Shown here one piece after another: positions 9,581-32,784 of a DNA stretch of 50,361 nt. Location: positions 1 to 50,361 of the IMG/VR virus record IMGVR_UViG_3300021165_002265. One strand, written 5' to 3'. Origin of the DNA: a virus. Numbering within the stretch: position 1 is the stretch's first letter; the number at the start of each line of letters is the position of its first letter. The notes under the pieces were generated by a model. It ran no database searches and was not told where the DNA came from. It saw only the letters and a program-made list of their open reading frames with translations. The translations under genes were made by a program, and so were the position numbers.

Positions 9581-10062
9581 AGTAAATTTAAGTTTGTAAA
9601 TTTATAACAGTCTTTTACTTTTAAAGAAGTATCCATAAATAGACGAAGGTACTTTGAATCAAAGAATAGCAAATCATCTATATCCTGTGGATCTTCTGAA
9701 TCTAAATACTTAAAATCAAAAATAACTTGTTCCATTTCTCCATTTTCATCCAAATGTACTTCGCTGTCATACCAACCCGTAGGAGGATATAAGAAATATA
9801 CATTTTCTATTTTATCTGAAACGAGTCCAATTTTTGAAATTCCTTTCTTGTCAAACTCATTTTGTTGAATTATCTTAGCATCTTTTCCTGGATAGACTAA
9901 AGATTCTATTCTTATCTCTCCATCTATTTTATGCATGATTTCATCAAAAATTATGGTTTTATCATAATTCTCTTTTCCGTACAAATTTTTTCTGAAAATA
10001 GAAGCATACTCTTCACTTCCAATAACTCCCTCAATATAAAAAACACCTTTAGATCTCTTCAT
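9559..10062 (-). CDS. hypothetical protein
   Basis: A 167-residue protein of mixed strand and helix content, acidic toward the C-terminus (DSEDPQDIDDLLFFD). No motif is recognised. The start overlaps the end of thyX by 14 bases and the end overlaps the next gene by 22, so it is translated in the same operon. Confidence 0.5.
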   Translation of the reverse strand: MKRSKGVFYIEGVIGSEEYASIFRKNLYGKENYDKTIIFDEIMHKIDGEIRIESLVYPGKDAKIIQQNEFDKKGISKIGLVSDKIENVYFLYPPTGWYDSEVHLDENGEMEQVIFDFKYLDSEDPQDIDDLLFFDSKYLRLFMDTSLKVKDCYKFTNLNLLCYNHKI

Positions 10063-11937: not shown

Positions 11938-13077
11938 TTAATGTGAATCCCCAACATTATTTTTTTCGCTATATATTAAGTAATCTGGGTTTATTACTTT
12001 AGCTACTTTTGCTCTGTTTCCATCGACAGCTTTTATAACAACACCTTCATGAGGAACTTTGGTGTTGTTTATAAAATTATTAAATACAAATTTATTTTTC
12101 ACCTCCTCTGAATAAAGCCCTTTATACAAGACTTCAACGTATGGCAATTTTAAATAATCGTTAACCACAAATTCAGCTGAGGTTAGATTAAAATACTTTT
12201 TGTTTAATTCAACATCAAAAATACAAAGCTGTATATCATCTAATCCGTACTCATAATTTTTTTGAATACCTTTACCGTAGATTTCTCCATAGATTATTAA
12301 TCCACTACCTATAGAAGTATCGTTACCTTTAATACTTATATTCTTTTTAACAAGATTCCAAAGCTTGTTTTTGATATCGTATTTTTTTTCAATATCATAC
12401 CAAACGTTAGTATCATAGAAACCCTGAGTGTCGGATCCTTTTTCTACGTTATGAGAACCTACTACAAATTCATACTCGCCCCAACCTAAATTAAAACCAA
12501 AGAACTTTTTAATTTTATCCCATAGAGATAATTTACTTTTCTTGACAATTCCATACCTTGCATTTGTTCCGTGTATTTTCCTTGTTATTTCTACATAATC
12601 ATATTCATCAAAAATATTAGGAACATTTTTAAAATTAGGAAATTTGTAATAAATATAAAAATTTGGATTTTCATAGTACTTCCTTTTTTTTCCACTAGAT
12701 AAAGTAATAAGTCTAGCTGGAGGTTCATACTTATATATTTTAAGTATGTCCATTAAATCCTCACCATATTTCCTTCTATTCTCAGGAATTAAATCAATTG
12801 GCATTAATAGGCATTCGCTATAAACGCCTCTTAATTTAATTGTTCTAACCCTTTCTTTACTCCGAAGATAATTAGTTACGCCTAATTTCTCTGAAATTTC
12901 TAAAGGTATTACAGCATCTGTTGTAGCACAGACAACTAAATCCCCAATTGAGTGAGAACCTTTTTTAACAATACAAAACCATCCATTTACAACAGCTAGT
13001 TCTATATTATCAGCATCCGGAATATCTTGAATACTATTTATTGCGGACACAAAACAAACACTATTTTCATTTTTCAT
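11938..13077 (-). CDS. Rnl5-type RNA ligase with N-terminal OB fold
   Basis: This enzyme should seal RNA ends with ATP through a covalent lysyl-AMP. The N-terminal 110 residues resemble the OB-fold of Deinococcus-type Rnl5 ligases (INSIQDIPDADNIELAVVNG, then SKERVRTIKLRGVYSECLL). The nucleotidyltransferase core follows with motif I RKIHGTNARYG near residue 167, motif IV IYGEIYGKG near residue 270 and motif V HEGVVIKA near residue 345. The 379-residue length suits Rnl5. It has a perfect host-type promoter. A polynucleotide kinase-like gene at 16822 and an HD phosphohydrolase at 20327 could supply end healing, so tRNA or RNA repair is the likely role. Confidence 0.85.
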   Translation of the reverse strand: MKNENSVCFVSAINSIQDIPDADNIELAVVNGWFCIVKKGSHSIGDLVVCATTDAVIPLEISEKLGVTNYLRSKERVRTIKLRGVYSECLLMPIDLIPENRRKYGEDLMDILKIYKYEPPARLITLSSGKKRKYYENPNFYIYYKFPNFKNVPNIFDEYDYVEITRKIHGTNARYGIVKKSKLSLWDKIKKFFGFNLGWGEYEFVVGSHNVEKGSDTQGFYDTNVWYDIEKKYDIKNKLWNLVKKNISIKGNDTSIGSGLIIYGEIYGKGIQKNYEYGLDDIQLCIFDVELNKKYFNLTSAEFVVNDYLKLPYVEVLYKGLYSEEVKNKFVFNNFINNTKVPHEGVVIKAVDGNRAKVAKVINPDYLIYSEKNNVGDSH

Positions 13078-13096
13078 AAACTATTATTTAATGACA

Positions 13097-13128
13097 CAAA
13101 GATAACTTAATTTTTTGTAATTTCCAAA
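13097..13128 (-). promoter_or_regulatory. host-type promoter of the RNA ligase
   Basis: On the minus strand TTTG, exactly 20 bases, then TATCTTTG. It overlaps the end of the upstream gene and its start point would be about 10-15 bases before the ligase start codon. Confidence 0.7.
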
Positions 13129-13409
13129 TTAATTAGAGATTTTTTTAATTCTCTTTCTTTTTTTCTCTTGTTTCTAGCGTACTCCACATATATTTCTCTT
13201 TTTTCCGCGTAGTATTCTTTTTGCCTATCAATTAATTTTTCTTTATTTTCTATATAATACAACTGTCTTCTTTTTTTCTCCTTTTGTCTAGCGTATTCAG
13301 ACATCGAATGGTAATTGGCTAACCTTTTTTTTCTATGCTCTTCTTTCTTTTCTTCAGATAAGTTAGCAAATCTATTTTTAAGATATTCTTTTTTGTCTTT
13401 TGTAACCAT
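13107..13409 (-). CDS. highly basic repeat protein
   Basis: This 100-residue protein is dominated by lysine, arginine, glutamate and tyrosine in a loosely repeated pattern (YYIENKEKLIDRQKEYYAEK), which suggests a long helix or coiled coil. Similar Y-x-E-N-K-E-K proteins occur in phages and near HNH endonucleases and probably bind nucleic acid. It ends inside the promoter region of the ligase and begins one base after the stop codon of the preceding gene. Confidence 0.55.
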   Translation of the reverse strand: MVTKDKKEYLKNRFANLSEEKKEEHRKKRLANYHSMSEYARQKEKKRRQLYYIENKEKLIDRQKEYYAEKREIYVEYARNKRKKERELKKSLINLEITKN

Positions 13410-13410
13410 A

Positions 13411-13968
13411 TTAATAAGCCTCTAAGTGAGGATCAATTAAGTTTTCTAATTTTGTTAATTCGTCAGCAACTTCTTTAGTAAAGGAGCCATAAACTCTTAT
13501 TGTACCGTATTTTACTTTTATGTCTCTTATAAACAATCCACCTGTGATATGCGTAAAAGCAGATGCTAAGTGTAAATCTCTACATCTAACTATTGAGTTA
13601 TCGTTAGCAAATAAATGTAGAAGATTCAGTACAAATGTAGGGCACCACCAAGGTTTAGCTTTCTTCGCAACAAATACAATAAAATCTTCTAGGTAATCAT
13701 ATAAATCAGTATCCTCATTAAAGATATTCCAGGAAATACCGAGGTAGTGATATTTATCTTCTCGCTTATTTGAAAAACATCTTAGAACATCTTCGAAAGA
13801 TACGGGAGGAAATTTATACCGTTGGCTCTTGCTTGACATTGGACCATACTTCTTTTCTAAACTGTATAATCCTATTCTATAAGATATGTATGATTTGATA
13901 TAGTAATACAGTATTATTGCGGGGATATAACCAATTACAACAATGAATAAAATAATTAAAATGTACAT
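13411..13968 (-). CDS. membrane-anchored hypothetical protein
   Basis: The N-terminus is a strong membrane anchor (MYILIILFIVVIGYIPAII) followed by a soluble domain of about 150 residues. There are four scattered cysteines (LRCF, WWCP, VRCRD) and a distinctive KAKPWWCPTFVLNLLHLF. No family is recognised. It is upstream of the basic repeat protein with a one-base gap, so they are likely co-expressed. Confidence 0.5.
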   Translation of the reverse strand: MYILIILFIVVIGYIPAIILYYYIKSYISYRIGLYSLEKKYGPMSSKSQRYKFPPVSFEDVLRCFSNKREDKYHYLGISWNIFNEDTDLYDYLEDFIVFVAKKAKPWWCPTFVLNLLHLFANDNSIVRCRDLHLASAFTHITGGLFIRDIKVKYGTIRVYGSFTKEVADELTKLENLIDPHLEAY

Positions 13969-13983
13969 AATAATAAATTTAAG

Positions 13984-14228
13984 TTAATCAAGATCATTGC
14001 ACCAGATAGGAGTCTGTTCTCCTACATAAGCACCACTAACATTATAATAAAAATGTTCTAAAGCATCTTCATCTGACATGTCTTCCATGAGAATATCAAG
14101 ACACTTAGACATAGAGAATATATAAGTCTCAAAGAATGTTCATCAAATCCAATTATAGCATCATCAAATCCATCAGCTTTCAAAAATGTCTCATCCGGGT
14201 AATTTTCTAGTATAGATTCTAATTTCAT
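13984..14228 (-). pseudogene. frameshifted gene of a common small phage protein family
   Basis: From the ATG at 14228 the frame reads MKLESILENYPDETF and later AIIGFDEHSLRLIYS, then shifts. In another frame the continuation KCLDILMEDMSDEDALEHF and GAYVGEQTPIWCNDLD runs to a stop at 13984. From memory the two halves belong to one familiar family of about 80 residues. The break lies near 14119-14125 (TATTCTCTATG), and one missing base would repair it. It may be a real pseudogene, a sequencing error, or a frameshift signal. Confidence 0.7.
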
Positions 14229-14229
14229 G

Positions 14230-14544
14230 TTATTTATTTTGCGGGGTTAATTTATCTAATAATTCTAATAAAACATCTCCATGACATGCCTGTGGCTTAC
14301 ACCAACATCCTAAAATCTTACCACCTTTTAATTCATGTAAATCATTCAGTAAATGTTTTCCATCTCCATTTGTAATCCATTCTCTATAAGCATTAACAGC
14401 AGCTTCTCTATCTTCCACTACGTGTTTAGCAAGTGTTGTACCATCCGGCCAATGAGTAAAAGGATTCCCCCATTTACTAGGCCTTCCAATATATACATTA
14501 TACTTCTCCTTCTTACAATGGACTACTCTTGATTTCACTATCAT
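14230..14544 (-). CDS. DUF4326 domain protein
   Basis: The core YIGRPSKWGNPF near residue 16 and the C-terminal CWCKPQACHGDVLLELLD are the signature of DUF4326, a small domain found in phages and bacteria with probable metal-binding Cys/His residues and unknown activity. The frame is open further upstream, but a start at 14544 (or 14547) fits the family best. It overlaps the upstream gene by 32 bases, pointing to coupled translation. Confidence 0.75.
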   Translation of the reverse strand: MIVKSRVVHCKKEKYNVYIGRPSKWGNPFTHWPDGTTLAKHVVEDREAAVNAYREWITNGDGKHLLNDLHELKGGKILGCWCKPQACHGDVLLELLDKLTPQNK

Positions 14545-14902
14545 CATTATTATTTTCAAGTCTACAATGCTCATTTACATAATCGTACAATGTATCAATA
14601 TTAAAACATATAGGAGTCTTATCAGAATCCCATGCAGCAGGTTCTCTGTCCGGATACATAATATCTTCATCTGCCTTAGCATCATAGGTTCTAACAAATT
14701 CAAAAAGATACCATGTTATCCAATCTAATCCTTCATCTTTATAATGAGATAGTATGCTTTGACTGAATATTGAATTAATCAAATCATCTATAGGAAAACG
14801 CTTATTCTCCAAAAAATTAAATCCGATATCATGTAAATTTGACATGTGCATACAAACATCATAATAGGACTTCAAGAGCATTTTAAAACTTTCTTTTTTC
14901 AT
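14513..14902 (-). CDS. hypothetical protein
   Basis: A 129-residue acidic, helical protein with aromatic clusters (DWITWYLFEFVRTYD). I do not recognise a family. It overlaps the upstream metallophosphatase by four bases (ATGA) and the downstream DUF4326 gene by 32, so all three sit on one transcript. Confidence 0.55.
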   Translation of the reverse strand: MKKESFKMLLKSYYDVCMHMSNLHDIGFNFLENKRFPIDDLINSIFSQSILSHYKDEGLDWITWYLFEFVRTYDAKADEDIMYPDREPAAWDSDKTPICFNIDTLYDYVNEHCRLENNNDDSEIKSSPL

Positions 14903-15636
14903 ATTTCATTTGTTAATTGTCCTACACTGACTTCATCATTTTCTATAATTAGATATTCCCGGCTCATTCCTAGGGTATCAATATAGTAGTACCGGCCTCC
15001 TGTAGTTTGTCCCTTAATATCAATTTTCTTTTGCTGAGTATGACCTACAACCTGGATAAATTCTTTTCTTAATGTATCGTAGTTGGATTCCTGCAAGGAC
15101 TTAGGCCGGATCCATATAGGAGAGGATTCAACACTATCTCCATAAGGATCCCACCCGGAGAATTTAAAAGCGCGGGGAGAAGCAATAAACAAATCATTAA
15201 CAAGAACATCAATATCTTCAAATCTAATTTTAGTCTTATTTTTACCCAGCCAATATTCTAACCATTTATAACTAACTCCCGCATGACTAAATAAATACTT
15301 ATCCATCTTATAACACATGGATAACTCATTTATATGTTCCATCAATAACGACTGAATAGTATGATGATGCCCTCTCTGATGCCCTGAATATGTTTCATTA
15401 GCAAAAGGCATGTAATGAAAGTCATGATTACCAATTAACATAATAACATCTGCTTTTGAATTACTCTTAAATTCAATCAAACGTTTAAAATTATGTAATT
15501 GAACTATAATTCTTATATCTTCATGTGTATCAAAGTAATCTCCTACAAATATAAATCTATCTGCATCATTTTCCTTTTCAACAATTTGTTCCCATGATAT
15601 TCTACCATGAATGTCTCCAATAATTACACTTTTCAT
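14899..15636 (-). CDS. calcineurin-like metallophosphatase
   Basis: Motifs of the two-metal phosphoesterase fold appear in order: GDIHGR at residues 8-13, FVGDYFD near residue 30, LIGNHDFHY near residue 65, FSHAG near residue 113 and VVGHTQ near residue 194. This is the pattern of serine/threonine protein phosphatase-like phage enzymes such as that of lambda. The 245-residue length is normal. It could act on proteins or on phosphate ends of nucleic acids. It starts one base before the stop codon of the 57-residue gene upstream and overlaps the next gene by four. Confidence 0.85.
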   Translation of the reverse strand: MKSVIIGDIHGRISWEQIVEKENDADRFIFVGDYFDTHEDIRIIVQLHNFKRLIEFKSNSKADVIMLIGNHDFHYMPFANETYSGHQRGHHHTIQSLLMEHINELSMCYKMDKYLFSHAGVSYKWLEYWLGKNKTKIRFEDIDVLVNDLFIASPRAFKFSGWDPYGDSVESSPIWIRPKSLQESNYDTLRKEFIQVVGHTQQKKIDIKGQTTGGRYYYIDTLGMSREYLIIENDEVSVGQLTNEI

Positions 15637-15637
15637 A

Positions 15638-15811
15638 TTATCTTTTTAAAACAAACCAATCATCGGTAAAAAATTTAACGATAGGCTTTGCTAGGTTACT
15701 AAAACATTTTTCATACATTTCATATCTGGATCTCCTAATATCCATTTTAATCTCATACAATCTACTAGGATCATCCACATCTTTAAAACTTTCATACATC
15801 TTCTCAAACAT
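15638..15811 (-). CDS. 57-residue hypothetical protein
   Basis: A short helical, charged protein (MFEKMYESFKDVDDPSRLYE at the start, ending DDWFVLKR). It is supported by its position: the stop codon lies one base before the start codon of the metallophosphatase. No function is apparent. The 158 bases upstream may be a structured leader. Confidence 0.55.
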   Translation of the reverse strand: MFEKMYESFKDVDDPSRLYEIKMDIRRSRYEMYEKCFSNLAKPIVKFFTDDWFVLKR

Positions 15812-15969
15812 CTTTTTTCATTTATAAGTTAAAATTTGCTCTTTATTCTACTACCCCTTTATATCAGAGCATGCCTGCTTATCTTACCTGCCGTTATATT
15901 CACAGCTTGGCTAATACGAGTTTCTCAAGGGTACAGGCTATCGAAAATATATATCCTCTTTTTATTTTA
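15812..15969 (-). other. non-coding leader with candidate RNA structure
   Basis: No convincing gene lies here. On the minus strand GCCTG and TACCCTT could pair with downstream CAGGC and AAGGGGTA in a crossed (pseudoknot-like) order, and further local stems are possible. It directly precedes the gene starting at 15811, so a cis-regulatory RNA is possible. It matches no riboswitch I know. Confidence 0.3.
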
Positions 15970-16185
15970 TTAGTATATTTTTTCTCCACATACTAAAGGA
16001 GTACCATCTGAGTTTAGAATCGGGATTGTACCATGTCTCATTTGCTTATAGATAAAACCATTTTCGCAAATTATACTATAGTCCCAACGCATGCCAACAT
16101 CATAAGGTTCTTTCTTAGATTCACAATACAATCCTAAAAAGGTAAGCCCACACGCTAATAAAATAAGAAGTAACATGCTTTTCAT
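15970..16185 (-). CDS. small membrane or exported protein
   Basis: The N-terminus MKSMLLLILLACGLTFLGLYC could be a signal peptide, a lipoprotein signal (a cysteine follows LGLY) or a membrane anchor. The remaining 45 residues contain IICENGFIYKQ and LVCGEKIY, a pattern seen in small phage proteins with two conserved cysteines. It overlaps the upstream gene by four bases (ATGA). Confidence 0.5.
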   Translation of the reverse strand: MKSMLLLILLACGLTFLGLYCESKKEPYDVGMRWDYSIICENGFIYKQMRHGTIPILNSDGTPLVCGEKIY

Positions 16186-16526
16186 TTCAAATATACTTTT
16201 AAGGTTAAATCTTTCTTTAGTCTTTCCATAAATGATTCCTCACCATCATCACCTGATACTAACCAATCAACTCTTTGAGCATATACATAAGCAATACTTA
16301 AGTACTTTACTGCTTCTTTAAACTCTTCTATAACTTCATCCGAATACTTATACCAAAACTTATCTTCCGGATACTTGATAAAATAATCATCATCAAGAGT
16401 CTCCCAAGCACCCTCCCTAATTTCTTCTTCTGTTTTAGCCCTCCCATTTTTTTCAATTAACTCTTCGATAGAATCAATTATGCCTTTAATTCGAGCTTGG
16501 TCATAATTAAAAAACCCTTCACTCAT
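16182..16526 (-). CDS. hypothetical acidic protein
   Basis: A 114-residue acidic, helical protein (RIKGIIDSIEELIEKNGRAK near the start; WLVSGDDGEESFMERLKKDL near the end). No family is recognised. It precedes the small exported protein with a four-base overlap. Confidence 0.5.
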   Translation of the reverse strand: MSEGFFNYDQARIKGIIDSIEELIEKNGRAKTEEEIREGAWETLDDDYFIKYPEDKFWYKYSDEVIEEFKEAVKYLSIAYVYAQRVDWLVSGDDGEESFMERLKKDLTLKVYLK

Positions 16527-16563
16527 GGTTATTGTTTTTAAAGTTTTACATTAAATCTTTCTC

Positions 16564-16764
16564 TCATCTTTTCCAAGTCATTAGGTCGCAATACTGTAAA
16601 GCTAATTCTAGTGCAATATTAGCGTTTTCTCTTGACCAATCATAGAAATCACCATAATTAAATTCTTCATTTGGGAATACCTTTGACCAAATGTATTCAT
16701 AAACATTTTGTCTAACTGGTACTTTCATAATCTTTATTAGTTCTTTTTCTAAATCATCTGTCAT
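16564..16764 (-). CDS. hypothetical protein
   Basis: A 66-residue soluble protein with many aromatic residues (NVYEYIWSKVFPNEEFNY). Nothing in it points to a function. It lies between the kinase-like gene and an acidic hypothetical gene in the same direction. Confidence 0.45.
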   Translation of the reverse strand: MTDDLEKELIKIMKVPVRQNVYEYIWSKVFPNEEFNYGDFYDWSRENANIALELALQYCDLMTWKR

Positions 16765-16821
16765 AAGGGATATAATTTAAAGAGTTTTAAAATTATTTTT
16801 AATACTATGTCTCATATTTTT

Positions 16822-17223
16822 TCACAATGAAATTTCAAATCTTTCTCTCATCTTTGTTATAGTCTCTTCCGGGCAATCATGAACATTTTTACCTCCATGT
16901 CTATTTTCCACAATTAATGAAAAGACCGTATAACCATGCTCTTTTGCCAAATCAAAGTAGGGTTTCATTTCCCATTCTTGTGTAAAGGTATTGGAAACAA
17001 CAATCCCGGGAACATCAAATCCTCTATCATTGGTTTCCATCCACTCTTTAACCTGATTCCTGCACCAAGAATGAGCCTCTTTCAATTTAGAAGCATCAAA
17101 CTTATATTCACCATCTTGCATAAAATACTGATCCGCTTCAATGTGAACACCACCCAATAATTTCGCTAGAGTGGATTTACCGGACCCTGGAAGGCCTCTT
17201 AATAATAAAAGTGTTTTACTCAT
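16822..17223 (-). CDS. polynucleotide kinase-like P-loop protein
   Basis: The 133-residue protein matches the NEDD4BP2/T4-Pnk-like kinase family: Walker A GLPGSGKSTLAK at residues 9-20, HIEADQYF with the likely catalytic aspartate, FDASKLKEAHSWCR, then SNTFTQEWEMKPYFDLAKEH and an arginine-rich lid near MRERF. Such enzymes phosphorylate 5'-OH ends of RNA or DNA. There is no phosphatase domain, unlike T4 Pnkp. With the RNA ligase at 11938 and the HD protein at 20327 it could form a split repair pathway. Confidence 0.75.
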   Translation of the reverse strand: MSKTLLLLRGLPGSGKSTLAKLLGGVHIEADQYFMQDGEYKFDASKLKEAHSWCRNQVKEWMETNDRGFDVPGIVVSNTFTQEWEMKPYFDLAKEHGYTVFSLIVENRHGGKNVHDCPEETITKMRERFEISL

Positions 17224-17224
17224 G

Positions 17225-17431
17225 TTAATTGTATTTAAAAGGGTTTTTCAAATTAACTTCTCTCCAAAACCCTACTACACCAAAACAAACAATCCCACTA
17301 ATAAAAACAATAACGAGAAGCAAATAAGATAAAGGATTATAGGGGTTTAACCTATGTCTTTCGAATCCATGCTTACCTACTATCTTCTCCGTTATCCATA
17401 AAGCTAATAGTAATTTTCTAAAGCTTATCAT
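17225..17431 (-). CDS. small membrane protein
   Basis: A 68-residue protein with a membrane segment near its C-terminus (YLLLVIVFISGIVCFGVVGF) after an N-terminal half with basic residues. It ends one base before the start of the kinase-like gene, so it is probably part of the same transcript. No family is recognised. Confidence 0.5.
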   Translation of the reverse strand: MISFRKLLLALWITEKIVGKHGFERHRLNPYNPLSYLLLVIVFISGIVCFGVVGFWREVNLKNPFKYN

Positions 17432-17433
17432 GT

Positions 17434-17853
17434 TTATTCGTTATTAAGTAATTTCAATAAAGACAATTCTTCAACAAAGGAGAAGGCTATTAATTCTCCT
17501 TCAATATCTGTGTATTGGAAATGCGGATGTCTTGCATCATCTGGCTGCCTAAACTCCCATATTTTCTTGTCCGTTTTTTCATCATAATAACCCATACTAA
17601 ATACCGTAGATTCGGTTCCATCTTCATAAGTTTTTTTTATCAATAACATTAACTCCGCACAATCCCAATTTAATCCCGGGTATTCACGTCCTGCATCTTC
17701 AACAGTCGTAGTTTTAGCATCATGCCAAATAATATCATGTTTATGCCCCTTATGTATGTTAGTAATAACTATTTTACCATTTTCATCATACTGTCCATCA
17801 CTAGAGTTGAAATTCCAAAGTTTTGTTTCTTGCTTAATTTTACTTTTTTTCAT
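17434..17853 (-). CDS. hypothetical protein
   Basis: A 139-residue, strand-rich soluble protein with histidine-rich patches (NIHKGHKHDIIWHDAK) and aromatic turns. I do not recognise it. It starts downstream of the tRNA-like region and ends two bases before the small membrane protein gene. Confidence 0.5.
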   Translation of the reverse strand: MKKSKIKQETKLWNFNSSDGQYDENGKIVITNIHKGHKHDIIWHDAKTTTVEDAGREYPGLNWDCAELMLLIKKTYEDGTESTVFSMGYYDEKTDKKIWEFRQPDDARHPHFQYTDIEGELIAFSFVEELSLLKLLNNE

Positions 17854-17913
17854 GTGTAAATGTTTTTGTTTTTAGTAAATAACATCTTCCTGACATCAAG
17901 AAGCTCATAAAAG

Positions 17914-18056
17914 TAATCAGGACAGGATTCGAACCTGCAAAGTTGAACTGTATTACATAAATGGACTCTTTAGAATGTGGAGGATAAACTCTCCGACTAT
18001 TTACACCACGTCAACCTTATCATGTTTTAAGCGTCTTCCAATTCCGCCACCTGACT
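17914..18056 (-). tRNA. aberrant tRNA-Leu-like locus (143 nt)
   Basis: Acceptor strands AGTCAGG and CCTGATT pair over seven positions (one G-U). The D arm GCGGAATTGGAAGACGC and the T arm GCAGG-TTCGAAT-CCTGT are intact, the latter with one G-U pair. Between D and T arms there are about 90 bases where a leucine tRNA needs about 35. The excess includes GGAG/CTCC and AAG-TTGA/TCAA-CTT pairings. No clean anticodon arm is visible, so decoding is doubtful. It may be a tRNA with an insert or a tRNA-like processing site. Confidence 0.55.
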
Positions 18057-18119
18057 GTACTTAGATTTTTAAAACCCACCTTTTACAAGGCAAGGAAACT
18101 CCATCTTATGTTTTTTGCG

Positions 18120-18215
18120 TGGCTAGGAAAGGATTCGAACCAATACGAATGAAGCGTAACCTATTTATCATTCTACCTTTGTAACGATAGCGTCTACCAA
18201 TTTCGCCACCTAGCT
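18120..18215 (-). tRNA. tRNA-Leu-like locus with enlarged anticodon loop (96 nt)
   Basis: The D arm GCGAAATTGGTAGACGC and the acceptor strands (AGCTAGG with CCTAGCC, A-C at the first pair) are kept, and GGTTCGAATCC is present, though the T stem has mismatches. The anticodon stem pairs TATCGTT with AATGATA, leaving a ten-base loop; with a standard five-pair stem the loop has 14 bases rather than seven. Removing seven bases can give TTTAGAA, a Leu(UAG) loop. Confidence 0.5.
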
Positions 18216-18226
18216 ATTTTATTTCT

Positions 18227-18550
18227 TTAAACCAAACGTAAAGCACGAAACCAATTTAGTATTAGATTCTTTTCTCCGTTAGGATATGTCCATTTACCTG
18301 TAATCATAAATAATAGAGGTAAAGAAATAAACATTAATATAAATAGAATTAACGCAAAAGGTAAAGTAAATCTTACCCATCCTTTAATTTCTGTTCTTTC
18401 CTCTGAGTAAAAATTAATTCCAAGGGATCTCCACCTCTCGCACATTTCCTCGTATGACACTTTTTTTAACTCAGGAAAAGTTTCACTGAATTTTGGTATG
18501 TAGGTCCAATTATTATGAGACCACACTCTTTTTAGTTTTTGAAATACCAT
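18227..18550 (-). CDS. membrane protein embedded in the tRNA-like cluster
   Basis: The 107-residue product has a soluble N-terminal half (KLKRVWSHNNWTYIPKF) and a hydrophobic segment of about 25 residues (FALILFILMFISLPLLFMI) followed by a short basic tail. It lies between two tRNA-like loci, so its messenger may be released by tRNA processing enzymes. No family is recognised. Confidence 0.5.
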   Translation of the reverse strand: MVFQKLKRVWSHNNWTYIPKFSETFPELKKVSYEEMCERWRSLGINFYSEERTEIKGWVRFTLPFALILFILMFISLPLLFMITGKWTYPNGEKNLILNWFRALRLV

Positions 18551-18570
18551 TTTTTATACAATTTTGTTAG

Positions 18571-18784
18571 TAGCAAGGACAGGATTCGAACCTGTACTTA
18601 CAATAAAGCCAATTAGCCATTCCATGACAATAAAGGAATTGAACCTTTACATTGTAACCCATTATGAGTAAATCGGATTTACACCGAAGCGTCTACCAAG
18701 TTTAAACATTGACCCCGTAGTGGATTCTAACCACATTATTTTCACTACTGGAACGGGGTTGTTTAAACATTCCGCCACCTTGCC
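18571..18784 (-). tRNA. composite tRNA-like locus (214 nt) with a D-loop insertion
   Basis: Outer acceptor strands GGCAAGG and CCTTGCT pair fully (one G-U). The 3' T arm ACAGG-TTCGAAT-CCTGT is perfect. The D arm is split after GCGGAA by a 61-base repeat unit and resumes as TTGGTAGACGC. An anticodon-like arm CGG-TGTAAAT-CCG follows (UAA, but G at the usual U33). A second perfect T arm AAAGG-TTCAATT-CCTTT lies inside. It looks like two fused tRNA modules plus an insert; function is uncertain. Confidence 0.5.
18700..18771 (-). repeat. hairpin insert flanked by 11-bp direct repeats in a tRNA D loop
   Basis: GTTTAAACATT occurs at 18700-18710 and 18761-18771. Between them ACCCCGT/ACGGGGT and GTAGTG/CACTAC pair into a long hairpin. 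Direct repeats flanking a hairpin look like the trace of a small insertion, inside what would otherwise be a normal D loop. Confidence 0.55.
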
Positions 18785-18860
18785 AAAATGAGTGTTTTTG
18801 TAATATCCCTAGAACACACAAACTATGCTGACCTACGATTCAGAGAGCGTCCACGCCAAT

Positions 18861-18879
18861 ATTCGACTTGTAATCGAAT
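18861..18879 (+). other. isolated anticodon-arm-like hairpin
   Basis: ATTCGA-CTTGTAA-TCGAAT has the exact form of a tRNA-Thr(UGU) anticodon arm on the plus strand. The surrounding 100 bases do not form a convincing acceptor or T arm, so this is at most a tRNA remnant. Confidence 0.25.
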
Positions 18880-18930
18880 CTGTAATCTCTATCTTCGATC
18901 CATACCCAGGCCTAGGTAGAGGGCTTTTTG

Positions 18931-19085
18931 TAGTCAGGACAGGATTCGAACCTGCAATACTGCCGCACTTCTGCGCTGATACCTTTTTTGTTTAACGTAA
19001 GGTTCGGCAAACCTCATTACAGTTTTTTAGTGTCTCCCATCAGGAATCGGCTTGATCAGTGCCGCCCTTGTTCCACCACCTGACT
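18931..19085 (-). tRNA. tRNA-like locus with D-loop insertion (155 nt)
   Basis: Acceptor strands AGTCAGG and CCTGACT are perfectly complementary with A at the discriminator position; the T arm GCAGG-TTCGAAT-CCTGT has one G-U pair. The D arm starts GTGGAA and resumes GGGAGACAC about 30 bases later, with a GGAA/TTCC plus GGC/GCC hairpin inserted. A CGCA/TGCG stem could be a long variable arm. The anticodon region is expanded and unclear. A host-type promoter starts it. Confidence 0.5.
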
Positions 19086-19095
19086 AATTATAATG

Positions 19096-19127
19096 CAAAT
19101 ATAAGTATCTTTCTTTAAAAAACCAAC
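19096..19127 (-). promoter_or_regulatory. host-type promoter of the tRNA-like cluster
   Basis: On the minus strand GTTG, 20 bases, TATATTTGC. The tRNA-like locus begins 11 bases beyond the -7 box, so it should start the transcript. Confidence 0.65.
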
Positions 19128-19143
19128 ACTTATTTTGTTAATA

Positions 19144-19767
19144 TTATGTTAATTTATTTCTTAGCACTTGAATAACATCCCACGCATCCAATAAAGCATT
19201 ATGAGAAACATTTCCATCAATATTAGCTCTCTTCTTACATACATCCAAAGAAGGCAGAACATCATCATTATTCACATCAAAATATAAAATTGCGGGGTCT
19301 AATATCCTTTTACGAACATCAATAAACCCAACCCATCCAGGAATATTATTTAAGAATAACATGTCAAATGCAGCAAAATTCTTTCCAGCTACATTTATCT
19401 TATATCTCTGAAATCTAGGATCAGCTTTAATTCCATTAGCATGTAGAAAAGATGTAAAAGATTCAGTTAATGTAAAAGTTTCAACAAAGATAGGATTATA
19501 ATTACCTACCTCATTATTTAACACATCATACGCATCATTTCTTTCATTTTCTACATAATCTGAAATATCCTTAATAACATCCATATTCATCAATAATGCT
19601 TTAGGAGATCCTTTAATGCTTCTATGAATGACAGTAGCATAGAACTTAGGACAATCTTCAAATGATAAAGATTTACTTGTATCTTCAATGATTGCTCCAA
19701 ATGATAGGATTTGATTTTTATTAGGATTCAAACCACTTGTTTCAATATCAATACTAACATACAACAT
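19144..19767 (-). CDS. DnaQ-like 3'-5' exonuclease
   Basis: The protein begins with the ExoI motif DIETSGLNP (catalytic D and E at about residues 7 and 9) and ends with HNALLDAWDVIQVL, the ExoIII-type H-x4-D of DEDDh nucleases. A middle aspartate (FAAFDMLFLNN near residue 135) fits ExoII. Length (207) is that of a stand-alone RNase T/oligoribonuclease-like or DnaQ exonuclease, so RNA or DNA ends may be trimmed. It lies directly upstream of the tRNA-like promoter, which makes a link with tRNA maturation possible but unproven. Confidence 0.8.
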   Translation of the reverse strand: MLYVSIDIETSGLNPNKNQILSFGAIIEDTSKSLSFEDCPKFYATVIHRSIKGSPKALLMNMDVIKDISDYVENERNDAYDVLNNEVGNYNPIFVETFTLTESFTSFLHANGIKADPRFQRYKINVAGKNFAAFDMLFLNNIPGWVGFIDVRKRILDPAILYFDVNNDDVLPSLDVCKKRANIDGNVSHNALLDAWDVIQVLRNKLT

Positions 19768-19777
19768 GATATAAGAT

Positions 19778-20056
19778 TTAATTAGTTACATATTCTGGAA
19801 GTGTACAAATATGAGGAGCAACACTTGTAGGGGCCAACAATACATTATAATACTTACATGCTTGCCCAAATCCATTACCTCGAAAGTCAATAAAAATATA
19901 CTTATCATTAAATGAAGTGATAGTACCATATTCATAAGGAACATTAATATTATCCCATACTTCTTTATACATGACTTTTCTTCCAACGAGACTACCATCC
20001 ATAGACTCCGGAAATACTCTTTTAGGCGTTAGCCCCTGGTAATCAAAACTGCTCAT
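19778..20056 (-). CDS. hypothetical protein
   Basis: A 92-residue strand-rich protein (LVGRKVMYKEVWDNINVPYE; GTITSFNDKYIFIDFRG), which suggests a small beta-barrel. The start at 20056 overlaps the membrane protein gene by four bases (ATGA) and is preferred over the longer open frame. Function unknown. Confidence 0.5.
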   Translation of the reverse strand: MSSFDYQGLTPKRVFPESMDGSLVGRKVMYKEVWDNINVPYEYGTITSFNDKYIFIDFRGNGFGQACKYYNVLLAPTSVAPHICTLPEYVTN

Positions 20057-20247
20057 AATCTTTCTTTTGCTTTTCTTATAAGTACTAGTAAAAAAACTGC
20101 GAATACTAGAATTAATGGACCAAGCCAAATGGGAGATAGTACCCACCACCAAGACCAATCTATAAAATTAGTAAGTTTTAGGGCAATGAAAAGGATAGTT
20201 AGTAGCCCCACAAAACTAACACCTGAACTCGAAGACTCTTTTGACAT
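20053..20247 (-). CDS. small membrane protein
   Basis: 64 residues with two hydrophobic segments (GVSFVGLLTILFIALKL and WWVLSPIWLGPLILVFAVFL) and a basic C-terminus. A host-type promoter lies just upstream (20280-20310), so it heads the operon that includes the exonuclease gene. Confidence 0.5.
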   Translation of the reverse strand: MSKESSSSGVSFVGLLTILFIALKLTNFIDWSWWWVLSPIWLGPLILVFAVFLLVLIRKAKERL

Positions 20248-20279
20248 GATTGATAATTTAAGAGTGAAATAATTATGCG

Positions 20280-20310
20280 CAAATATACGAATAAAAATGA
20301 TAAAAACAAA
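20280..20310 (-). promoter_or_regulatory. host-type promoter
   Basis: On the minus strand TTTG, 19 bases, TATATTTGC, upstream of the small membrane protein at 20053. Confidence 0.65.
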
Positions 20311-20326
20311 TTATTCTACAACTTTT

Positions 20327-20830
20327 TTAAACAATTCCACCTTTATCAATCGTAGAGAAGAATATTAAATCATTGAATGACCTGTGGTTTTCAATAGCTA
20401 CTCGCTTAGATAATCTCATAGATTCTAACACTGGATTAGGGTACTTTACCAACATGTGATTCTTTACTATGAAATGTATAGCTTCAATATCGGTTCCCTC
20501 GAAAGACAGGATCCAATCTTTGTACTCCAAAACATACTCTGCTGACTTATGTTCATGTCCATACGCAGTTGGCTGACCTGTTTTTTCGTTTATACCATAA
20601 GTATCCATTTTACCCAAGTCATGAAATAGAGCTGCCATTATTATATTAGGATTATTTGGATACTTTTTATAAGCTCTTCGCAATACTACTATAATGTGCT
20701 TTAACGTATTTCCCTCCGGATGCCATACTATGTTTTGTTTAGCTTCCCATTGCCTGAATAACAATTCTTTCAATGTTCTAGGCGCTATAGAAATTAAATG
20801 CTTATAAGATGTTAGCAATACTTTAGACAT
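20327..20830 (-). CDS. HD-domain phosphohydrolase
   Basis: The metal-binding HD signature is clear: WHPEGNTLKHI near residue 36, AALFHDLGKMDT near residue 66, GHEHKSAEYV near residue 92, and a later HFIVKNH. This arrangement is shared with tRNA nucleotidyltransferases and with the HD half of bacterial HD-Pnk RNA repair enzymes, which remove 3'-phosphate or 2',3'-cyclic phosphate. With a separate kinase and an RNA ligase nearby, an end-healing role is attractive but not proven; a nucleotide phosphohydrolase is the main alternative. Confidence 0.75.
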   Translation of the reverse strand: MSKVLLTSYKHLISIAPRTLKELLFRQWEAKQNIVWHPEGNTLKHIIVVLRRAYKKYPNNPNIIMAALFHDLGKMDTYGINEKTGQPTAYGHEHKSAEYVLEYKDWILSFEGTDIEAIHFIVKNHMLVKYPNPVLESMRLSKRVAIENHRSFNDLIFFSTIDKGGIV

Positions 20831-22228: not shown

Positions 22229-22306
22229 CAGTCAGGGCCGGACTCGAACCGGATAAGCGACCATTTTACTTGACTTGGAACCATTCCTCATTACGCCCAC
22301 CTGACT
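22229..22306 (-). tRNA. atypical tRNA-like locus (78 nt)
   Basis: Acceptor strands AGTCAGG and CCTGACT are perfect and the T arm CCGG-TTCGAGT-CCGG is intact. The rest is of near-normal length but does not form a standard anticodon arm: GGAA-TGG-TTCC sits where the D/anticodon region should be and CCA/TGG flanks a 12-base loop. It is related to the tRNA-like loci at 17.9-19.1 kb by its ends. It lies between two genes of one strand. Confidence 0.45.
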
Positions 22307-22730: not shown

Positions 22731-23687
22731 TTAGTTTGCAGATTGCCAAGTATAATCTATGTCACCTGGTACATTATCAGGTCTATGCCATTTAGCACAT
22801 TTTACAGCATCTTTAAATGTAGGACAAGTGTCAATTAAATATACTGATTTTGTGCTAGGACAAGTAAACTCAATCCATGCGTAAGGTTGATCCAACTCAC
22901 CTTTGCTATTTTGTAAGAATGAGTATGTTTTATTTGTTTTATACAATCTGATTATTTCCTCATACCCGTTCTTATGTACCACGGTTTGCTCATCTACAAT
23001 AGATGCATCTAACATTTCCAGGACACCCTCATTTCCGTAATTTTCTTTAATTATGGTAATGATAGCAGCTTTAATATCTTCGTTATCTTGATTATGAAAA
23101 GCAATCTTAGCATTAATTAACGAGCTACATTCTTCAAATAACTCTTTTTCCAAGAATCTACCATTAACATAGTGCTGCCCATACCCATCAGCAAATTCAA
23201 TGGCAAATCCTGTAGTACAATGTAAGTCGTTATTTTCGTTTCTAGCTATTTTTTTAGGATACTTAGATACGAGGCAAACTTTGTCCATTTGTATTTGAAG
23301 ATATGAGTTTTCCACACACTCTAGGACTAAGTTAAAGTCATCTTTGTATTCATCAAGAATATCAAAATTATCCATAAAAAAACTGTAGAAAGATAGCCAT
23401 GATATGTCATCAACATTAATATAAGATGAAAACGGTTCATATACTAGGTTATCTTTATTCCCCATCAATTCATTTACTTTCACTTGACATTGCATAGGAC
23501 TGTCTAGCAAAAGTACTTCCGGCTCGGCCAATCCGCAAAACTTGTATAGTTTTTTCATTGAGACCTCGGTTCTGTCTTTATCATGGTTATTGTAAAACTC
23601 ATAATTAAAAACTTTACTCAACCACTTTTCTCTGTGGGAATCCAACTTTGCCTCTTGCTCCGGGGTCAAACTTTCTATTTTCTTCAT
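22731..23687 (-). CDS. hypothetical protein (318 aa)
   Basis: One of the larger unknown proteins here. It starts with a charged helix (LTPEQEAKLDSHREKWLSKV), has two regions rich in aromatic residues, and ends with a compact segment (AWIEFTCPSTKSVYLIDTCP; CAKWHRPDNVPGDIDY). No nucleotide-binding or catalytic motif is evident. It has its own leader with a TATATTTGC -7 box at about 23725-23733, so it probably leads an operon with the gene at 22322. Confidence 0.6.
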   Translation of the reverse strand: MKKIESLTPEQEAKLDSHREKWLSKVFNYEFYNNHDKDRTEVSMKKLYKFCGLAEPEVLLLDSPMQCQVKVNELMGNKDNLVYEPFSSYINVDDISWLSFYSFFMDNFDILDEYKDDFNLVLECVENSYLQIQMDKVCLVSKYPKKIARNENNDLHCTTGFAIEFADGYGQHYVNGRFLEKELFEECSSLINAKIAFHNQDNEDIKAAIITIIKENYGNEGVLEMLDASIVDEQTVVHKNGYEEIIRLYKTNKTYSFLQNSKGELDQPYAWIEFTCPSTKSVYLIDTCPTFKDAVKCAKWHRPDNVPGDIDYTWQSAN

Positions 23688-23820: not shown

Positions 23821-24030
23821 TTAATAATCTAAAATTGATTTTTTTACTTCCTCACATACTTGATGCCATACTTTAAATCTTATTTGATCCATTATTTGCA
23901 TACTCACTAGATTGTTAACTTTTTTTATTACTTGACTTGATATTTCATCTTTTTCATGATTCCTCATTTCATATCCAGTATGATTCCAGATTTTGTCCTG
24001 TACTAAATTATTTACATTATCCATAATCAC
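23821..24030 (-). CDS. QV-repeat array protein 20
   Basis: Last member of the array in the direction of transcription. Four-residue spacing of V/I is visible (NLVQDKIWNHTGYEMR; QIMDQIRFKVWHQVCEEV). The start is a GTG overlapping the previous stop (GTGA); an ATG lies six bases later. It ends KKSILDY, not the usual KL. No terminator was found behind it. Confidence 0.6.
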   Translation of the reverse strand: MIMDNVNNLVQDKIWNHTGYEMRNHEKDEISSQVIKKVNNLVSMQIMDQIRFKVWHQVCEEVKKSILDY

Positions 24031-24233
24031 ATATTTAAATTTACTTCATTAACTAATTTAATCCATGCTTGAACTCTTACTCCATTAAATATTTGTCCTC
24101 CTAATAAATCTTCAACATTATTACCTACTTTATCAGTTATTTCCTGATCCACTTGATTAGATAGATGATTCCATAACATAACTCTTACTTTATAATTTAC
24201 ATGATTTACTACTTTACTTCTTATATTCTTCAT
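24027..24233 (-). CDS. QV-repeat array protein 19
   Basis: 68 residues with spaced V, I, W and Q/N (MKNIRSKVVNHVNYKVRVML; DQEITDKVGNNVEDLL). Start codon overlaps the preceding stop in ATGA. A longer open frame upstream overlaps the preceding gene by 34 bases. Confidence 0.65.
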   Translation of the reverse strand: MKNIRSKVVNHVNYKVRVMLWNHLSNQVDQEITDKVGNNVEDLLGGQIFNGVRVQAWIKLVNEVNLNM

Positions 24234-24439
24234 ATTTCTAAAATTTGTCTTACACGTTCCCATTCTTGATCTAATACTTTAGCTTCTAATTCATCCCCTA
24301 CTCCATTTCCAATTCGATCCCATATTTGCTTATCCCCCTTGTTCCATATTTTTTTTCTTAATTTAGTTACTACTTGTTCACTTAGTTTATTAATCAAAAG
24401 CGTCCTTACTTGATACATCTTTTCGTTGATTCGATTCAT
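24230..24439 (-). CDS. QV-repeat array protein 18
   Basis: 69 residues; the repeat is degenerate but still spaced by four (KIWNKGDKQIWDRIGNGVGD). ATGA overlaps at both ends. It ends QILEI, so the usual C-terminal KL is lost. Confidence 0.65.
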   Translation of the reverse strand: MNRINEKMYQVRTLLINKLSEQVVTKLRKKIWNKGDKQIWDRIGNGVGDELEAKVLDQEWERVRQILEI

Positions 24440-24711
24440 AACTTGATATTTTGTTTTACCGGCTGCCATACTATATAACGTGCTCTATTTTTTACTTGAT
24501 TCCGGACTTCATTATGAACTTGCCTAGATGTTAATAGCCATAATTCATTAAGCAGTTGAGTACCTCCCTGCTGCCATATTTTAGCTTTAATTTTATCCTT
24601 TACATTTTTCATTTTTTGTCTTTTCTCGATTATAAAAGAAGTTAAGGTTTCCGGAGATTCTTTACTTAGAGCATCATCCAATTTTCTTTCTAAATCCTTT
24701 AAGTTAATCAT
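24436..24711 (-). CDS. QV-repeat array protein 17 with an added N-terminal domain
   Basis: 91 residues. The first 33 (MINLKDLERKLDDALSKESP onward) do not belong to the array and look like a small charged helical phage domain; array sequence begins at MKNVKDKIKAKIW and runs to PVKQNIKL. The stop overlaps the next start (ATGA) and its own start overlaps the stop of the gene at 24708. It may tether repeats to another partner. Confidence 0.65.
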   Translation of the reverse strand: MINLKDLERKLDDALSKESPETLTSFIIEKRQKMKNVKDKIKAKIWQQGGTQLLNELWLLTSRQVHNEVRNQVKNRARYIVWQPVKQNIKL

Positions 24712-24941
24712 TTCTTATACTCTTCGGGGAATCTACCATCACCCCATAAAATAGGCTTGTCCAAACATTCTAACATCCGAATCAGCATAAATCTAAAATC
24801 TGTAGCATCCTCAATTTCCATTTTACAAGATTCTACAGTAGATGCATCAGGAGTTCCATCCTCATTATAATATACCTCATGAATCTTGAATACGACATTC
24901 TTTCCAACTTCATAAGCTAACACTCTATAATTCCAACCCAT
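24708..24941 (-). CDS. hypothetical WNYRV-type protein heading the second array segment
   Basis: 77 residues starting MGWNYRVLAYEVGKNVVFKI, then HEVYYNEDGTPDAST. From memory this opening is shared by a widespread family of small phage and bacterial proteins (WNYRV followed by HEVYYDEDG) of unknown role. It has no repeats and is unrelated to the array, yet is co-transcribed with array genes 17-20. The start at 24941 is chosen because the longer frame runs into the promoter leader. Confidence 0.6.
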   Translation of the reverse strand: MGWNYRVLAYEVGKNVVFKIHEVYYNEDGTPDASTVESCKMEIEDATDFRFMLIRMLECLDKPILWGDGRFPEEYKK

Positions 24942-25017
24942 AAAACAGTTTTGCGCGGGGAACCCAAATAAATAAACATCCCAGCAATTAAATAAATAAA
25001 CATCCTTAACATGAATA

Positions 25018-25049
25018 CAAAGATACAACATAAAATAATAACATCCAAA
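25018..25049 (-). promoter_or_regulatory. host-type promoter of the second array segment
   Basis: TTTG, exactly 20 bases, TATCTTTG on the minus strand. Spacer and the following leader (including ATTGCTGGGAT and CCCCGCG) resemble those of the first array promoter at 28306, so it is a duplicated control region. Confidence 0.7.
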
Positions 25050-25077
25050 TAAAACATCAATAAAGACATTAATATAA

Positions 25078-25254
25078 TCATAACTTTATATTTCGTATTA
25101 CTTGACTAACTAATCCCTCCCTAATTTCAATACACATAAAATCCCTTACTTGATTCCACACTTTAAATCTTACTGGGCTACTAACTTTATTACTCATTGG
25201 AGACATTAATTGATCTCTTATTTGTTCACTTACTTCATTTTCAACATTCTTCAT
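25078..25254 (-). CDS. QV-repeat array protein 16
   Basis: 58 residues: MKNVENEVSEQIRDQLMS at the start and QVIRNIKL at the end, with VWNQV in the middle. Start overlaps the previous stop (ATGA). It is the last gene of the first segment; the promoter of the second segment lies 29 bases beyond its stop. Confidence 0.65.
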   Translation of the reverse strand: MKNVENEVSEQIRDQLMSPMSNKVSSPVRFKVWNQVRDFMCIEIREGLVSQVIRNIKL

Positions 25255-25463
25255 AACTTCATATTTTGTTTTACATGTGTTCGTATTTCATTACTCACAT
25301 TACTATAGACTTGATTATTTATTTGATCCCATATTGGCCTCTGTATTTGCTCTATTACTAGAACCCAAACTTCAGTACTTACTTCATTACTTACTTTATT
25401 TATTAATCCGCAATTTAATTTACTCCATATTTGTCTCCGTCCTTTCTCGCTCGTATTATTCAT
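25251..25463 (-). CDS. QV-repeat array protein 15
   Basis: 70 residues with clear spacing in the second half (EQIQRPIWDQINNQVYSNVS) and the typical end HVKQNMKL. ATGA overlaps link it to neighbours on both sides. Confidence 0.65.
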   Translation of the reverse strand: MNNTSEKGRRQIWSKLNCGLINKVSNEVSTEVWVLVIEQIQRPIWDQINNQVYSNVSNEIRTHVKQNMKL

Positions 25464-25659
25464 AACTTCATATTTTGTCTTACCTGGTTGATTACTTGAA
25501 TATATAATTGTTCTTTTGTCTCGGTATATATTTCATTGTTTATCTGACTATATACTTTGTAATTTGTTTTATCCGATATTTCACCTCGCAATTTATTCTG
25601 AATTTTATCCCATATTTTTCCCATACTATACTGTTTACTTGACTGTTTAAATTCCTCAT
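25460..25659 (-). pseudogene. QV-repeat array gene 14, interrupted at an A tract
   Basis: From the ATG at 25659 the frame reads MRNLNSQVNSIVWEK and leaves the array pattern after GAAAAAT. One base back, array sequence resumes (KIWDKIQNKLRGEIS) and ends IQVINQVRQNMKL at the ATGA of gene 15. Adding one A to the A5 tract restores the whole gene. It could be off by slipped-strand mutation or read by a -1 frameshift. Confidence 0.65.
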
Positions 25660-25865
25660 AACTTTATTTTTTGTGCTACATGATACCATACTTGTCTCCT
25701 TACTTGATCTGCCAATTTATTAGTAGTTAATTCAACCATTTGATTAGTTACTTTACTAGATACTTTCATTTCTATTTTATCTTCTACCATATTTCGGGTG
25801 TGAACTCTTAAATTCATCCATAATTTATCACATGAAGATGCTACTTTTTTCTGTACCTTTTTCAT
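25656..25865 (-). CDS. QV-repeat array protein 13
   Basis: 69 residues from MKKVQKKVASSCDKLWMN, with spaced V/M/L residues and the tail QVRRQVWYHVAQKIKL. A frame extends upstream over the end of gene 12 but the ATGA overlap start is favoured. Confidence 0.65.
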   Translation of the reverse strand: MKKVQKKVASSCDKLWMNLRVHTRNMVEDKIEMKVSSKVTNQMVELTTNKLADQVRRQVWYHVAQKIKL

Positions 25866-27954: not shown

Positions 27955-27970
27955 AACTTAACATTTTGTT

Positions 27971-32769: not shown

Positions 32770-32784
32770 GTTATTTTTATTTTG

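Follow-up and report, generated by a model that had tools for sequence, protein, structure and literature searches.

The 50,361-base virus record IMGVR_UViG_3300021165_002265, analysed here over its whole length (the window) and possibly a fragment, carries on its minus strand, from which the studied region (positions 11,938 to 20,830) is read, a putative RNA-repair gene set and a neighbouring array of tRNA-like (TL) RNAs built on a tRNA scaffold, and we hold this combination, with moderate confidence, to be the best overall explanation of the region. Within the set, the pairing of an Rnl5-like RNA ligase with a separate kinase resembling T4 polynucleotide kinase (Pnk) is supported, membership of a calcineurin-type phosphoesterase is probable, and that of an HD-domain protein is unproven. 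The initial annotation had read ligase, kinase and HD protein as a possible split three-gene repair pathway, and the three minus-strand open reading frames (ORFs) on which it drew are present.

The RNA ligase, its linked kinase and the phosphoesterase

11938–13077, minus strand: Rnl5-like (DRB0094-type) ATP-dependent RNA ligase, 379 amino acids (Pfam, PHROG, NCBIfam and PDB matches)
14899–15636, minus strand: calcineurin-type metallophosphoesterase, candidate 3'-end healer (Pfam Metallophos; phrog_246, phrog_8238)
16822–17223, minus strand: T4-Pnk-like P-loop kinase, candidate 5'-OH RNA kinase, 133 amino acids (AAA_33; phrog_2071; structure model)
20327–20830, minus strand: stand-alone HD-domain protein (Pfam HD; phrog_6931, phrog_2244)

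The ligase matches the Pfam families PHA02142 OB (5.8e-14) and RNA_ligase (5e-13), as well as the Naegleria RNA ligase 6vt3 (3.4e-15), residues 12–133 of which align with its N-terminal OB-fold (PF21189, 52.7 bits against a cut-off of 27). Furthermore, K167-I-H-G, G264-E265, E344-G345, K349 and K360-V-I-N-P are invariant in the ligase alignment (n = 22), residues that we take to belong to nucleotidyltransferase motifs I, III, IV and V. The protein had been called an Rnl5-type ligase; the Pfam and PDB matches uphold the RNA ligase, and because its score against NCBIfam RNA_lig_DRB0094 (TIGR02306) stays under the curated cut-off (108.9 against 151.15 bits, E 2.4e-31), the name is loosened here to "Rnl5-like".

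For the kinase, the earlier label "polynucleotide kinase-like" agrees with a match to AAA_33 (1.6e-12) and with the predicted fold, modelled from 26 sequences at a mean predicted local distance difference test (pLDDT) score of 83. The closest PDB fold is T4 Pnk (E 8.6e-6, Z 12.4, root-mean-square deviation (rmsd) 3.6, 129 aligned), tied by the rule of the tool with the next ones, the Clostridium Pnkp kinase (Z 11.8) and phosphoseryl-tRNA kinase (Z 11.5). Invariant in the kinase alignment are G10, G15, K16, E29, D31, N78-T-F-T-Q, R108 and H109, and D31 and position 34 were compared with what we take to be the general-base Asp35 and the substrate Arg38 of T4 Pnk. On this model, the protein is a candidate T4-Pnk-like 5'-OH RNA kinase. 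Among the 30 matches listed of 620 phage records, six place the kinase on genes named ATPase and RNA ligase/tail attachment protein; in annotated phages it can lie on or adjoining a gene with the latter name.

Linkage was assessed at 19 distant ligase loci, 58–68% identical to the window ligase, with the 81 window genes compared as neighbours in fetched 10-kb flanks, some of them shorter. The kinase was the commonest neighbour (17/19), the phosphoesterase followed (6/19), and any other gene occurred at no more than 4/19. Clustering at 90% ligase identity gave 14 clusters, in 12 of which the kinase lay on the ligase strand within 8 kb, at gaps of 5–242 bases (six), 0.6–1.6 kb (five) and 7.9 kb (one); the phosphoesterase lay on the same strand within 5.5 kb in four. 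Moreover, ligase and kinase co-occurred among 83 contigs: 6 had the ligase with a strong kinase match, 3 the kinase only, 6 the ligase only and 68 neither, giving p 0.00017 at a kinase limit of E ≤2e-30 and p 0.00006 at 1e-30. These values are to be read with strict kinase and ligase cut-offs picked after the tables had been seen and with some dependence among the contigs, G018 and G038 apparently being a single phage and IMG/VR records possibly being fragmentary. Within the close clade the ligase, kinase and HD genes are largely syntenic, and in the close relative L003 the HD protein, ligase and kinase are 99%, 96% and 78% identical to those of the window. Homology and linkage together suggest that kinase and ligase probably mend nuclease-cut RNA.

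The phosphoesterase, sited between ligase and kinase, was absent from the list of the initial annotation. Both it (3.4e-8) and the kinase (0.0071) touch the 737-position profile phrog_8238, and its neighbourhood suggests that it is probably a better-linked 3' healer than the HD protein and a member of the repair set.

Several observations count against this reading of the repair genes. Phosphoseryl-tRNA kinases and phosphofructo-2-kinases match the kinase model almost equally (Z 11.5 and 11.2), and the Arg of T4 Pnk has no counterpart three residues past the invariant D31 of the kinase, position 34 being nearly always Phe; a sequence search of the PDB with the phosphoesterase gave nothing at 0.01. 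Among 74 distant kinase loci, the ligase was near 15, relatives of a window epimerase gene (31593–32588, a common kind of protein) near 13 and the phosphoesterase near 2, so that the ligase was hardly ahead of the epimerase relatives and the kinase travels without it as well. The kinase was also not found in G104, G105 and G106, close-relative contigs keeping ligase and HD protein. The proteins and their linkage are read directly from the DNA; their activities and expression are predictions.

tRNA-like RNAs with exchangeable modules

Six TLs lie in the window, four of them within 11,938–20,830 and two outside it, a correction to the five of six counted inside by the initial annotation. They are given here with the sole ordinary tRNA called in the window.

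18931–19085, minus strand: TL1, tRNA-like RNA with a D-loop insert and a variable module (scan; acceptor 7/7, T stem 5/5)
18571–18784, minus strand: TL2, tRNA-like RNA with a D-loop insert between GTTTAAAC copies (scan; acceptor 7/7, T stem 5/5)
18119–18215, minus strand: TL3, tRNA-like RNA with a compact module and a weak T stem (read by eye; acceptor 6/7, T stem 3/5)
17914–18056, minus strand: TL4, tRNA-like RNA (scan; acceptor 7/7, T stem 5/5)
22229–22306, minus strand: TL5, compact tRNA-like RNA of 78 nucleotides, outside the studied stretch (scan; acceptor 7/7, T stem 4/5)
38066–38172, minus strand: TL6, tRNA-like RNA outside the studied stretch (scan; acceptor 7/7, T stem 5/5)
32784–32858, minus strand: tRNA-Met (CAT) (ARAGORN; Rfam 65.6 bits)

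The six TLs keep 6–7 of 7 acceptor pairs and 3–5 of 5 T-stem pairs, and their D arm, read by eye, is tRNA-Leu-like. ARAGORN separates the tRNA-Met (accepted) from all six TLs (rejected), and Rfam at its gathering score likewise calls none of them, TL3 reaching 26.7 bits with the Rfam tRNA model, below the cut-off of 29; no tmRNA was reported by ARAGORN in the window. A stem of 5 bp with a 7-nucleotide loop soon after the D arm was found in 0/6 window TLs, by a strict test that the true tRNA-Met also fails, and 212 of 252 tRNA-like hits, some ordinary tRNAs among them, failed the test for an anticodon arm at the usual place.

The exact 26-position scaffold pattern occurred in at least 120 stretches of viral contigs, against 3 in 84,980 prokaryote genomes, the latter on contigs of 5.8–8.0 kb. 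The 322 tRNA-like hits were reduced to 252 unique ones, 176 with a parsable module, 144 after removal of similar ones and 121 (≤85 nucleotides) that were folded. In the 176 TLs the 3' half is conserved at 73–100% per column, a figure partly imposed by the scan, which demands a T loop and pairing, and the module that replaces the anticodon arm spans 22–138 nucleotides (median 60). These modules form 139 clusters, 114 of them singletons, and some are common to distant phages. The 121 folded modules are more stable than their shuffles (mean z −0.85, p 1e-12). Pseudoknots as a general rule were considered and rejected: crossing helix pairs did better than in shuffles (p 7e-8), as did nested ones (p 4e-9), and the crossing pair was ahead of the nested one in 37% of modules (shuffle means, 24%); pseudoknots are retained only for single module families read by eye. 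Judged by scaffold and modules, the TLs do not look like damaged tRNAs.

Comparison with L003 separates what is kept from what is exchanged. In TL2 and TL4 the module is swapped (37% and 36% identity; 93 against 39 and 92 against 42 nucleotides) between scaffold segments that are 98%/100% (TL2) and 96%/92% (TL4) identical, and TL1 and TL3 are retained over every segment (95–100%). In L004 and L207, scaffolds other than that of TL3 carry the TL3 module type, the L207 copy having a second stem altered on both sides (GAATGA/TCATTC to TGTGG/CCACA); in the D-loop insert of TL1, a 4-bp stem reads CGGC/GCCG, CAGC/GCTG, CAAC/GTTG and TAGC/GCTA in four variants, a fifth losing one pair. Neither of these pairings is forced by the search. 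Two self-complementary GTTTAAAC copies flank the D-loop insert of TL2, the end of which is a T-arm-like hairpin, and L004 carries the same type of insert with a G-U-compatible change (both by eye). TL5 represents a compact subtype of 77–80 nucleotides, conserved and not variable, also seen in L002, L003, L004, L034, L035, L057 and L132, and the TL6 module type recurs in L140 and L262.

Outside the window, the Rfam tRNA model matches about ten TL copies, and an Rfam scan of four TL loci returned tRNA for the TLs and otherwise only weak sub-threshold family matches. A short TL query covered no phage-collection record to 80% (0/700 matched) and no plasmid (0/61). Through one short match, an unannotated 143-nucleotide element (L386:399–541) was recognised in an isolate phage, Weissella phage PWc, at about 23074–23216 on the complement strand of KY744240.1. 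It has the acceptor AATCACG/CGTGATT and a D arm that is near-identical, and by eye two complementary segments that cross, GCGGGT/ACCCGC and GTTGTTA/TAACAAC; its T loop, TGCAAAT, is rejected by the TL scan, and the T arm is absent from the minimum-energy fold. The element is a candidate only, TL-like and a possible experimental handle.

Further observations concern the surroundings of the TLs. The spacer between TL1 and TL2 (18786–18930, minus strand), which contains a hairpin of varying sequence, is seemingly conserved in L003, L004 and L008 (by eye) and is perhaps a further structured RNA. An element of about 60 nucleotides (GCAAAAAACATAAGATGGAG...; 18057–18118, minus strand) lies between TL3 and TL4 and also occurs in L002, L003, L004, L005 and L035. 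Directly upstream of TL1 stands a DEDDh/RNase T-type exonuclease gene (19144–19767, minus strand), kept in most close relatives. In other viral contigs, L253:479–6223 holds about 25 ordinary tRNA matches with several TLs among them, and the TL-carrying L247 has a Twister-sister ribozyme match at 9870–9944 (35.9 bits against a gathering score of 34).

Possible roles of the RNAs and rival readings

In the reading that we favour, the Rnl5-like ligase would join 3'-OH to 5'-phosphate ends, the T4-Pnk-like kinase would supply the 5'-phosphate and the calcineurin-type phosphoesterase would probably clear the 3' end, the most likely target being RNAs that host ribonucleases have cleaved, above all tRNAs, in the manner of phage T4. 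The tRNA-like acceptor, D and T arms of the TLs would permit trimming by host tRNA enzymes; the exchangeable module takes the place of the anticodon arm, in some cases with the D loop carrying a further insert, and is exchanged between close relatives as the scaffold stays, and each module would most likely bind and occupy a host defence ribonuclease or toxin. An arms race is suggested because a fixed carrier is joined to a fast-changing module, and that the modules bind defence proteins, as counter-defence decoys or antitoxin mimics, is a guess from this pattern. The fuller proposal, of an undescribed class of phage RNAs in which a fixed tRNA scaffold delivers a library of decoy- or antitoxin-like modules and kinase and ligase mend those RNAs that are still cut, is put forward tentatively.

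In this context, the relation between TLs and repair genes was assessed on 40 TL and 43 tRNA-Leu control records of at least 30 kb, taken for each pattern from the 80 stretches listed out of 120. A record carrying both patterns was dropped from the controls, which are unmatched for habitat or clade. The ligase was found in 7/40 TL against 5/43 control contigs at E 0.001 (p 0.54) and in 7/40 against 1/43 at E below 1e-49 (p 0.026). For the kinase, the counts were 16/40 against 14/43 at E 0.001 (p 0.50), a limit at which its profile also matches in all 14 control genomes, and 7 against 2 (p 0.08) and 7 against 1 (p 0.026) at the strict limits of 2e-30 and 1e-30. The HD profile matched in 1/40 TL contigs, the scaffold pattern (≤3 mismatches) in 2/19 distant HD contigs, and TLs were near 0/21 distant HD loci. 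Because 33 of the 40 long scaffold-pattern contigs, which are fragments (five of the 33 being 165–207 kb), show no phrog_968 ligase, the ligase seems not to be required by the TLs; the kinase was not found in 24/40 even at the loose limit. The association is likely that of a shared gene pool of large phages and not of an obligate enzyme-substrate pair, and the TLs would be poor stand-ins for cut tRNAs because they show no anticodon arm at the usual place. The earlier suggestion that they serve defence against anticodon nucleases, or the processing of inserts, keeps a loose link at locus level in its favour; the missing arm and the ligase-free contigs speak against it.

Other points tell against our reading of the TLs. 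TLs were near 4/19 distant ligase and 6/74 distant kinase loci and near 1/120 phage tRNA-Leu loci (p 0.0012 and 0.013 against tRNA-Leu), so that a loose link to repair remains, in a comparison where the control loci are shorter (1083 kb over 120, against 335 kb over 19 ligase and 1134 kb over 74 kinase loci) and the TL-bearing loci are not all independent (L140 holds 5 of the 8 TLs near ligase, and the kinase loci L098 and L099 share TL sequences). The modules of TL1 and TL2 contain 5-bp, 7-nucleotide hairpins, at unusual positions, and a 5-bp stem fitting an interrupted anticodon arm was present in 46/144 modules, against 32.3 ± 4.4 in shuffles. Moreover, the search pattern biases the conservation seen in the 5' scaffold, the structure is modest (z below −2 in 11% of the 121 folded modules), and crossing stems were not more enriched than nested ones. 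The scaffold, the module replacement and some compensatory pairing are observed, and the expression and function of the TLs are predicted; the arms race is drawn from variability, which drift and recombination could also yield.

Possible as well, at a level clearly short of even, is that the TLs act outside defence, as regulatory or structural RNAs, e.g., phage small RNAs with tRNA-like ends for stability and target-binding modules. The weak structure and diversity of the modules and the position of the window TLs between short same-strand genes fit this, and the replacement of whole modules between close relatives would, in our judgement, be unusual for a house regulator.

Rather unlikely is the pathway of the initial annotation, in which HD protein, kinase and ligase would form a split HD-Pnk/ligase system mending host or phage tRNAs, with the HD protein doing the 3' step. 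The HD label is confirmed (Pfam HD, 25 bits against a cut-off of 22), and HD protein and kinase are, as it stated, separate genes and not an HD-Pnk fusion, in ORFs about 3.1 kb apart. The 343-position phage profile phrog_6931, matched by the HD protein (3.4e-8) and, at another part, by the kinase (3.5e-4), looks like a fused HD-Pnk and suggests that fused relatives exist; the synteny in close relatives points the same way. PMC7824862 mentions HD-like domains as 3' phosphatases that occur rarely in jumbo phages. When full records were searched, 6 of 19 distant HD contigs had the ligase and 7 had the kinase, at HD-kinase distances of 17 kb (G037) and about 39 kb (G095) in the two measured.

Linkage and fold argue otherwise. 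The HD protein was near 0/19 distant ligase loci (0/14 clusters) within the fetched flanks, and 21 distant HD loci had the kinase near 1 and the ligase near 0. Its model (pLDDT 94) ties PhnZ, an oxygenase (Z 13.0, rmsd 2.9, 137 aligned), with the HD part of a tRNA processing enzyme (Z 12.4, rmsd 3.6, 144 aligned), and its sequence profile finds both (3.2e-4 and 3.3e-5, respectively). An RNA role for the HD protein is possible and not favoured over other roles; linkage presents it as a neighbour kept in the close clade, and its membership in the repair set is not supported beyond close relatives. Of the three-gene set, the ligase with its separate kinase stands (12/14 clusters, p 0.00017), and the HD protein as third member does not (0/14 clusters; kinase near 1/21 HD loci).

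That the TL inserts are introns, whose flanking halves would be joined by the phage kinase and ligase into protein-spliced tRNAs, is improbable. The window encodes a ligase and a kinase along with possible 3' healers, and the locus link and the 46 modules with a compatible stem described above are in its favour; 98/144 modules offer no such stem, the phrog_968 ligase is lacking in the 33 contigs already mentioned, and modules are replaced outright between close relatives. Splicing to a normal tRNA, as a candidate explanation of the compatible stems, is not convincing and not dead. Least credible of all are decaying tRNA-Leu pseudogenes with random insertions, for which the lack of ARAGORN calls and the weak T stem of TL3 might speak, against a scaffold retained in 176 copies from many phages with differing modules, compensatory changes in the D-loop stem and modules common to distant phages.

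Known systems and neighbouring features

Repair of tRNA in T4-type phages relies on Pnkp and an RNA ligase, and bacterial Pnkp combines kinase, calcineurin-type phosphatase and a ligase-like part in one chain. The same domain kinds as in bacterial Pnkp occur here, phosphoesterase and kinase both touching phrog_8238, but as three separate genes, the ligase being a full Rnl5-like enzyme. Compared with T4-type repair, the ligase is Rnl5-like and not Rnl1, the kinase is a bare domain, and the 3' healer is likely a separate phosphoesterase. As for HD-Pnk, an HD protein and a Pnk-like kinase are both present, but as two genes that show hardly any linkage beyond the close clade. For jumbo phages, PMC7824862 describes repair sets in which a ligase occurs with a kinase and a phosphoesterase. 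The set described here has in common with these, and with T4-type repair, separate phage genes for kinase and ATP-dependent ligase that are often next to each other. The repair part of the window is a mild variation on this known phage theme, an Rnl5-like ligase with a bare Pnk-like kinase.

Regarding the RNAs, YrlA and other Y RNAs are non-coding RNAs with a tRNA-like part. The TLs share this tRNA mimicry and differ by their open acceptor ends and variable module. A Ro/Y-RNA identity was considered and rejected: no Rfam YrlA match was found in the window, Ro/TROVE protein was above cut-off in 2/40 TL contigs only, and weak sub-cut-off YrlA matches in L253 overlap ordinary tRNAs. Type III antitoxin RNAs (ToxI), small structured RNAs that restrain a ribonuclease, resemble the TLs in their proposed role, but consist of pseudoknot repeats without the tRNA scaffold that TLs carry. 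In the open-access literature (preprints excluded), no paper on such tRNA-like phage RNAs was among the matches listed.

The TL family weighs more than the repair pair, with a scaffold that is common in viral contigs, rare in prokaryote genomes and missed by ARAGORN in the window, and that joins a steady carrier to a module wholly replaceable between close relatives. Should these modules bind ribonucleases of the host, the TLs would amount to an RNA-based platform of general use in counter-defence, and to a case in nature of the tRNA scaffolds by which RNAs are stabilised.

Padloc and NCBIfam scans added little. Elsewhere in the window, at 23821–28213 on the minus strand, stands a row of over ten short, apparently paralogous ORFs in which QVW/QVR-type repeats recur.

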